Source of the DNA: Flavobacteriales bacterium | GTDB lineage: Bacteria > Bacteroidota > Bacteroidia > NS11-12g > UBA955 | Assembly: GCA_947487055.1 (NCBI GenBank) | Contig: CANKVN010000017.1 | Coordinates: 1 to 32,571, forward strand | Length of the DNA: 32,571 bases | Direction of reading: 5' to 3' | Shown: piece after piece, positions 24,443 to 26,899 of the stretch | Numbering within the stretch: position 1 is the first letter of the stretch | Layout: each line of letters begins with the position of its first letter | Program-made: the position numbers and the translations under genes | Notes under the pieces: generated by a model | What the model was told of the DNA's origin: nothing | The model's database searches: none | What the model saw: the letters and a program-made list of their open reading frames with translations, nothing else

Positions 24443-25273
24443 TTAACCCAGTCCTACATCCAGCGCCATCATTATCACAAAACCAAAGATCAGGCCAAGG
24501 GTTGCCTTATCGGTATGCCCATCGCGCTGGGTTTCCGGAATTACTTCTTCCACCACCACATAAATCATGGCTCCTGCAGCAAATGCAAGGGCGTAAGGCA
24601 AAATTGGCTGAGCCAGCATAACCAAAGCAACGCCAAGCACACCGGCAACCGGCTCAACAACACCGCTCAACTGGCCCCACAGAAATGATTTCCAGCGGCT
24701 CAATCCAAACCGGCGCAAGGGAATTGCAACAGCCAGGCCTTCAGGAAAATCCTGAATACCAATGCCGATGGTAAGCGCAATGGCGGCACCCATATCTGCA
24801 CCGGGAAGTCCTTCGGCTACGGCTCCAAAGGCTACACCTACAGCCAATCCTTCGGGAATGTTGTGCAAGGTGATGGCCAATACCAGCAACACGGTTCTGT
24901 TCCAATCTGTTTTCACCCCTTCCCGCTTTTCCATCGGTTCATTAATATGCAGGTGCGGTAAAAATTGATCCAGTCCAAAAATAAATAAGGCTCCGAGTAT
25001 AAATCCTATTGCAACAGGAACCCAGGCCCAATGAGGCGCCCAGGTTAATTCGGCCATTTCAATGGCCGGATTTAACAAACTCCAGAAACTGGCGGCAATC
25101 ATCACCCCTCCGGTAAAACCCAACATGGTATCCATAAATCCCCGCCGGATATCTTTCATGAAAAACACAAAAGAGGCGCCAAATGCGGTTACCAGCCAGG
25201 TAAATATGGTGGCCACCAAGCCCTGCATTATCGGGTGCAACTGGCTAAAAAAATGAATCAGGGTTTCCATCAT
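24443..25273 (-). CDS. ZIP-family metal transporter, GufA/ZIP11 type
   Basis: A 276-aa inner-membrane transporter for divalent metals such as zinc, with about eight helices. Helix 4 has HNIPEGLAVGVAFGA (137-151) with the metal-site His137, Asn138 and Glu141; helix 5 has QDFPEGLAVAIPLR (174-187), where Gln replaces the His of classical ZIPs, as in the GufA/ZIP11 subgroup. A histidine pair in LPHLHINEP (105-113) may bind metal on the loop side. It starts 9 bp after a 57-aa membrane protein gene and shares its promoter at 25462-25469. The metal and the regulation are not evident; no Zur- or Fur-like box was recognised. Confidence 0.9.
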   Translation of the reverse strand: MMETLIHFFSQLHPIMQGLVATIFTWLVTAFGASFVFFMKDIRRGFMDTMLGFTGGVMIAASFWSLLNPAIEMAELTWAPHWAWVPVAIGFILGALFIFGLDQFLPHLHINEPMEKREGVKTDWNRTVLLVLAITLHNIPEGLAVGVAFGAVAEGLPGADMGAAIALTIGIGIQDFPEGLAVAIPLRRFGLSRWKSFLWGQLSGVVEPVAGVLGVALVMLAQPILPYALAFAAGAMIYVVVEEVIPETQRDGHTDKATLGLIFGFVIMMALDVGLG

Positions 25274-25282
25274 GCAATCGGT

Positions 25283-25456
25283 TTAATCTTCAAAGCGCTC
25301 GTAATGCTGATTGTGTTTCTTGGATTCGGTTTCTTTTTGTTTAAACGCTTTCAAAAACAAATATATGGCAACAAATACGACTATCGTTATAATGACTTCC
25401 CAAATAAAGAACTGATTTTTAAATCCCTGGATGGTTATGGAGGTTGTATCACGCAT
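25283..25456 (-). CDS. Small single-helix membrane protein upstream of the ZIP transporter
   Basis: A 57-aa open frame from ATG 25456 to TAA 25283. It begins MRDTTSITIQGFKNQFF, has one hydrophobic helix at about 18-36 (IWEVIITIVVFVAIYLFL) and a charged tail ending KKHNQHYERFED. Support: it fills what would otherwise be a 255-bp gap, it starts 5 nt after a perfect -7 box (TACATTTG), and it ends 9 bp before the ZIP gene on the same strand. It resembles no family I know. A role as an accessory subunit or regulator of the transporter is inference; it may also act alone. The histidines and acidic residues in the tail could bind metal. Confidence 0.65.
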   Translation of the reverse strand: MRDTTSITIQGFKNQFFIWEVIITIVVFVAIYLFLKAFKQKETESKKHNQHYERFED

Positions 25457-25461
25457 TGATA

Positions 25462-25469
25462 CAAATGTA
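25462..25469 (-). promoter_or_regulatory. -7 promoter box TACATTTG for the small membrane protein-ZIP pair
   Basis: Perfect TAnnTTTG on the minus strand ending 5 nt before the ATG at 25456. It points away from the dipeptidase gene and supports the 57-aa frame as a real first gene. Confidence 0.55.
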
Positions 25470-25528
25470 TAAAAGTTATGTCATTTCTATTACTGAAAAT
25501 GTGATACCTGCTGTAAATTGCGGCCACT

Positions 25529-26899
25529 ATGAGCCAAACGACATATATAGAACAACATAAAGACCGTTTCCTCCACGAACTATTTGATTTGCTGAGAATC
25601 CCCAGCATCAGTGCTGACAGCGCTTTTACCGGTGATGTACGCAAATGTGCGGAAGCCGTTGCAGACCACCTCAGCAAAGCTGGTGCCGACAATGTTTCTA
25701 TCGAAGAAACTGCCGGACATCCCATCGTTTATGGTGAGAAAATTGTAAATCCATCATGGCCAACCGTATTAATCTACGGCCATTATGACGTGCAGCCTAG
25801 CGCTCCGGATAATTTGTGGATTACACCGGCATTTGAACCAACAGTTCGTGATGGAAAAATCTATGCACGTGGCGCGGCGGATGACAAAGGTCAGTTTTTC
25901 ATGCATGTTAAAGCTTTTGAAACCATGGTTCAAACCGGCACATTGACCTGCAATGTTAAATTCATGATCGAAGGAGAAGAAGAAGTAGGCAGCGGAAACC
26001 TGGGCCCCTACTGCGTTTCCAACCGGGATAAACTGAAAGCGGATGTAATTCTGATAAGCGATACTTCCATGGTTGCAAACGATGTGCCTTCCATTGATAT
26101 TGGCTTACGTGGCCTTTCTTATGTAGAAGTTGAAGTTACCGGCCCCAACCGCGATTTACACAGCGGAGTTTATGGTGGCGCAGTAGCCAATCCCATCAAT
26201 GCTCTTTGCAGCATGATTGCCAGCTTGCACGATGAAAACAGACACATCACCATCCCCGGTTTCTATGAAGATGTGCTGGAAACATCTGCGGCAGACAGAG
26301 AAGCCATGTCCGGCATTCCGTTTGATCTGGAAGCCTACAAAAAAGACCTGGCTGTTAATGATGTATACGGAGAAAAAGGTTTTAGCACCATAGAGCGCAC
26401 CGGCATTCGTCCAACATTGGATGTAAATGGTATTTGGGGTGGATACACCGGCGAAGGCAGCAAAACCGTTTTGCCCAGCAAAGCATTTGCAAAAATCAGC
26501 ATGCGACTTGTGCCAAACCAAAGCAGTGAGGCCATTACCGAGATATTTAAGAATCATTTTGAAAAAATAGCGCCTCCCGGCATCCGTGTTGAGGTAAGGC
26601 CTCACCACGGTGGCGAACCTGTACTAACGCCAACAACAAGCATTGCCTACAAAGCCGCTGCTGCTGCCATGAATGACACCTTTGGAAAACAACCCATTCC
26701 AACCCGTGGAGGTGGCAGTATTCCAATCGTAGCCTTGTTTGAAAAAGAACTTCAAACCAAAGTGGTTTTAATGGGATTTGGCCTGGACAGCGACGCCCTG
26801 CATTCTCCCAATGAACATTACGGCATTTTCAACTATTTAAAAGGCATTGAAACCATCCCGCGCTTCTTCCATCATTTTGCTGAAATGAACAAAGCCTGA
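25529..26899 (+). CDS. M20-family dipeptidase
   Basis: A 456-aa zinc dipeptidase of the CNDP/PepV-like M20 group. Metal and catalytic motifs: LIYGHYDVQP (81-90; His85, catalytic Asp87), YARGAADDKGQ (112-122), FMIEGEEEVGS (145-155, catalytic and metal-binding glutamates), the dimerisation-domain DLHSGVYGG, TRGGGSIPIV, and the C-terminal metal His in HSPNEHYGI. No signal peptide, so cytosolic peptide degradation is likely. The Rel/SpoT gene follows after 9 bp on the same strand, so they may share a transcript. No perfect -7 box is seen in the 72 bp upstream. Confidence 0.93.
   Translation: MSQTTYIEQHKDRFLHELFDLLRIPSISADSAFTGDVRKCAEAVADHLSKAGADNVSIEETAGHPIVYGEKIVNPSWPTVLIYGHYDVQPSAPDNLWITPAFEPTVRDGKIYARGAADDKGQFFMHVKAFETMVQTGTLTCNVKFMIEGEEEVGSGNLGPYCVSNRDKLKADVILISDTSMVANDVPSIDIGLRGLSYVEVEVTGPNRDLHSGVYGGAVANPINALCSMIASLHDENRHITIPGFYEDVLETSAADREAMSGIPFDLEAYKKDLAVNDVYGEKGFSTIERTGIRPTLDVNGIWGGYTGEGSKTVLPSKAFAKISMRLVPNQSSEAITEIFKNHFEKIAPPGIRVEVRPHHGGEPVLTPTTSIAYKAAAAAMNDTFGKQPIPTRGGGSIPIVALFEKELQTKVVLMGFGLDSDALHSPNEHYGIFNYLKGIETIPRFFHHFAEMNKA

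Follow-up and report, generated by a model that had tools for sequence, protein, structure and literature searches.

Transporters do get modulated by small proteins (review, PMC10710835), and the examples treated there, AcrZ, MgtS, MntS and MgtU, are about 30–60 aa long with a single transmembrane helix through which a polytopic partner may be bound. Another described case is the MetS-like small single-helix subunit of NSS symporters, captured by the NCBIfam model NF033493. For gene expression in this part of the bacterial tree the reference is F. johnsoniae, in which the -7 promoter element TAnnTTTG spans T-12 to G-5, transcription starts approximately 5 nt past the G and most transcripts do have leaders (PMC6847099). 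Here we analyse a small gene on a contig of a Flavobacteriales bacterium (CANKVN010000017.1, positions 1 to 32,571; this whole stretch of 32,571 nucleotides is the window), which encodes a 57-aa single-span membrane protein directly ahead of a gene for a ZIP-family metal transporter. Bacterial ZIP transporters are not known to have a small accessory subunit. An earlier note on this DNA had read the small gene as the leader of a ZIP operon and its product as a protein that acts on the transporter. We find that the gene represents a genuine family of small membrane proteins and that its ZIP operon is specific to one genus.

Results

The small gene occupies 25283..25456 on the minus strand, stop codon included, and translates without a break in frame into the 57-aa product MRDTTSITIQGFKNQFFIWEVIITIVVFVAIYLFLKAFKQKETESKKHNQHYERFED. 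A Kyte-Doolittle scan gives one hydrophobic segment, residues 17–35 (mean 2.67), as the predicted transmembrane helix (25352..25408, minus strand), and AlphaFold2 on the single sequence returns one continuous helix with a mean pLDDT of 81, which for a lone helix adds little beyond that. Both the intact frame and the single helix described in the earlier note are therefore borne out. Its one helix and its length of less than about 60 aa give the protein the build of the AcrZ/MgtS kind of modulator, and its N-terminus probably faces outwards and its basic tail inwards. The Glu at the helix start (residue 20) is invariant in alignments A1 and A2, and the Phe-Lys pair preceding it is invariant in alignment A1. 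Searches of Pfam, NCBIfam, PHROGs and PDB placed the protein in no family, the matches all being below threshold and of the sort that single helices give; TRAP_alpha, COX2_TM and DUF4083 were rejected as identities, being look-alikes of this kind.

A single-sequence search with a loose cut-off matched the small gene in 66 of 70 genomes of its family. With a profile built from 37 diverse members, convincing matches (E <= 1.3e-8) came from 96 of the order's 108 genomes, a count that leaves out two further listed genomes with marginal matches only. The same profile recovered it from 62 of the 64 good-quality genomes of the order, nearly always as a single copy; one of the two exceptions, G016, has a contig that stops where the gene is expected (L230). 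Among 395 genomes sampled across the class, all 15 strong matches fell inside the order, the other 10 matches (E 1e-5 to 1e-3) lay in longer frames, and the approximately 380 genomes of the class outside the order held no convincing match. Judged from these searches, the small protein is lineage-specific and nearly universal in the order. The copies in family f2 are weakly similar, and a c6-c5-c2 gene block that lies near the small gene in both f1 and f2 supports their common descent.

The substitution pattern is that of a protein. Across six genus members pS was 0.3–0.9 versus a pN of 0.07–0.19, and the differences by codon position (150:69:389) show an excess at third positions; Ka/Ks within the genus was approximately 0.05–0.16 where Ks could be computed. 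On this pattern the small gene is under purifying selection and represents a real protein-coding family. A lack of homologues with a conserved amino-acid sequence, which would have refuted the earlier note, is clearly not the case, and the synonymous bias for which that note had asked was found. The small size and the close spacing to the ZIP gene might suggest a chance ORF, or a peptide leader mattering only to ZIP expression, but the order-wide amino-acid conservation, the low Ka/Ks and the presence of the gene without a downstream partner leave this reading a negligible probability. The chance ORF is refuted by the conservation, and the recurring promoter spacing points the same way as the homologues and the purifying selection.

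That promoter, TACATTTG at 25462..25469 on the minus strand, was noticed earlier as a perfect box 5 nt before the ATG, and it is found exactly there. Given 5 nt from the G of the box to the ATG, the predicted leader is 0–1 nt, with transcription starting at the ATG or 1 nt before it. The box recurs with its G about 4–5 nt before the chosen start codon in many f1 relatives that have no tight upstream operon partner, so the mRNA of the small gene is probably leaderless. Some f1 members have the box 12–16 nt away or in a variant that escapes the exact pattern, and no such box was seen where the small gene comes after NSS or AGCS. By its recurrence TACATTTG is a genuine -7 element, from which the small gene is probably transcribed as its own leaderless promoter; no clear -33 element was established for the gene. 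In the same loci approximately 7% of ORFs carry a box 3–7 nt ahead of an ATG, the distances peaking at 4 nt, so this layout is a trait of the lineage rather than special to the small gene. This peak in the loci of the order, together with such boxes ahead of ZIP genes in other genera, also suggests that leaderless mRNAs are common there, in contrast to F. johnsoniae.

Further features were seen around the promoter. The divergent M20 dipeptidase gene (25529..26899, plus strand; assigned by NCBIfam PRK08201 dipeptidase and synteny) is separated by 72 bp from the start of the small gene. A block, TTGATATATGTTATC, is perfectly conserved directly upstream of the -7 box in five genus genomes (L002–L006), and the window's own 25457–25530 has diverged at its position; the exact 13-nt core of the block occurs at this locus only in the five genomes. 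A zinc regulon marked by GATATATGTTATC was considered and rejected, because the exact block occurs once per genome, ahead of the small gene, in each of the five related carriers. Lastly, a second TAnnTTTG match, TATATTTG, lies inside the small gene (25358..25365, minus strand); it is not conserved in relatives and could be a candidate minor promoter for the ZIP gene in this species.

The second cistron, at 24443..25273 on the minus strand according to the ORF list, encodes a 276-aa ZIP-family metal transporter (Pfam Zip PF02535, E=2.4e-27) that is ZupT-like and scores below the NCBIfam ZupT cut-off. Its start follows the stop of the small gene after 9 nt (25274..25282, minus strand), in agreement with the earlier note, and the gap of 5–9 nt across the genus is too short for ZIP to have a promoter of its own between the two genes. 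ZIP lies directly behind the small gene in all six gene-holding genomes of the genus. The small gene does then lead a ZIP operon, a two-gene unit with its own predicted promoter, in this genus. The adjacency is absent from every other genus examined, and none of the ZIP loci fetched from outside the genus has the small gene nearby; in five genomes of other genera (G059, G060, G030, G058 and G042) the two genes share a contig at a distance of approximately 32–50 kb. Of 26 ZIP genes outside the genus, 10 have a TAnnTTTG of their own that precedes the ATG by 4–5 nt; for one of these 10 the ATG used lies a codon within the match.

One reading of the operon, which goes back to the earlier note, is that the small protein is a dedicated ZIP modulator. 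It would bind the transporter via its helix, in the way known for MgtS and AcrZ with their partners, and its His-containing tail hinted at metal binding. The tight linkage in six of six genomes speaks for it, as do the modulation of other transporters by small proteins and the CDF metal-efflux gene that follows the homologue in genus g6 after 5 nt. We nevertheless consider it unlikely: the small gene is retained order-wide without a linked ZIP and next to unrelated genes, ZIP genes up to 82% identical occur elsewhere without an adjoining small gene, and the small protein has identical core residues whether or not its gene is linked to ZIP. An accessory protein specific to ZIP should show linkage beyond the genus and a conserved metal-binding His tail, and neither was found; the tail His residues vary, the family does not conserve their position and the small protein of L006, a ZIP-linked relative, lacks His altogether. 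Adjoining ZIP only in this genus, the small protein is probably not the dedicated regulator of ZIP, and probably not a ZIP subunit either. The tight spacing in all six gene-holding members would also fit a functional pairing born in the genus, and direct action on ZIP is possible, if poorly supported.

The neighbours of the small gene change from genus to genus. In the f1 genera g7, g8, g10 and g13 and in most g14 genomes it is solitary, with a divergent gene on one side and a convergent gene on the other; these neighbours are the M20 dipeptidase gene and, as a rule, a CoA-transferase gene. In g14 it is also found inverted on its own between these two flanking genes (L155, L156 and L159 versus L154 and L160), whose order and direction stay the same. 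The M20 dipeptidase gene borders the small gene in the majority of the family's other genera, and a link to it was rejected on account of the missing adjacency in g3, g4, g9, g11, g12 and f2.

Another set of loci has the small gene directly behind an NSS operon or AGCS, namely most f2 genera outside g16, g3 and most g4 genomes. From the f2 and g4 loci a role as a small, MetS-like subunit of a Na+-coupled amino-acid symporter looked strong, but NSS and AGCS are both absent from seven of seven genus genomes, so the small protein is not an obligate subunit of either. In addition, many NSS genes already have a separate gene of 44–55 aa directly behind them, often between NSS and the 57-aa homologue, and the NSS locus L228 (g12) holds this separate gene without the homologue. 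The MetS model is not among the matches of the small protein, nor among those listed for the members of A1. With these results the subunit reading was dropped as very improbable.

The separate gene of approximately 44–55 aa was seen behind NSS in L162–L169, L186, L187, L190, L193, L196 and L228–L231; its product has a start like MxxSALIxM, followed by KVLRTPP and DSYSEN, and is at best sub-threshold to the MetS model. The same site ahead of the small gene is occupied by AGCS in L184, L192 and L194 and by NSS in L187, L193 and L196, a pattern suggesting that one symporter has displaced the other in f2.

A broader reading is that the small protein is a promiscuous partner or assembly factor of many polytopic proteins and was repeatedly and independently recruited to their operons. 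Besides ZIP, NSS (with its own small gene), AGCS and the CDF gene of g6, the tight codirectional neighbours include a MarC gene 1 nt behind the small gene in one g2 genome, a gene for a UPF0093/DUF2269-like 4-TM protein close behind it in several g16 genomes and a PEMT/ICMT-like membrane protein gene directly behind it in one g9 genome. Counted by gene family, approximately six of ten tight neighbours have at least three predicted TM helices compared with 12–14% of the genes in the same fetched loci, from which the baselines were taken (P approximately 0.0003–0.001, or 0.02 at a 25% baseline, in a post hoc test of events that are not fully independent). However, three of the tight neighbours, TrmH (g11), a nucleotidase-like protein (g12) and a secreted protein (g16), are not polytopic, and in approximately half of the family's genomes the small gene has no operon partner. 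We regard promiscuity as rather unlikely; it is less likely than the reading that we prefer, though the more interesting of the two.

Discussion

The reading that we prefer, and hold to be probable, is that the small protein is an order-specific, single-copy, single-span protein with a core role, and that ZIP came under the control of its promoter, by promoter capture, in this genus. The protein would be an inner-membrane helix with a membrane partner, and would most plausibly act as an accessory helix bound to a ubiquitous membrane complex; such a role is backed by no family or fold match in the four libraries searched. In the ancestor of the genus, a rearrangement would have set a formerly autonomous ZIP gene 5–9 nt behind the small gene. 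With no space left for a promoter of its own, ZIP would now be co-transcribed from that of the small gene. A rearrangement followed by dependence of ZIP on the small-gene promoter is the simplest history that we can infer for the operon.

The small gene defines an undescribed, order-wide family of small membrane proteins that is missing from the curated libraries searched. It also illustrates that operon adjacency alone can mislead: a gene that heads a ZIP operon in one genus is elsewhere solitary or next to other genes. Were the protein indeed a promiscuous partner, several transporter families would share a single small helix, an unusual and testable situation.

Among known systems, the ZIP transporters of Pfam PF02535 include the downstream gene as a clear member, and linkage of the small gene to such a transporter is limited to one genus. 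The MetS-like NSS subunit of NF033493 resembles the small protein in being a small single-helix protein and in the NSS operon found in part of the order. Unlike that subunit, the small protein is kept in genomes without NSS, and many NSS operons hold a separate small gene at the MetS position. AcrZ, MgtS, MntS and MgtU are alike in size, in their single transmembrane helix and in the possible binding of a polytopic partner, and no sequence relation between them and the small protein was found. In contrast to these four, the small protein is not tied to one transporter and is kept throughout the order as its neighbours change.
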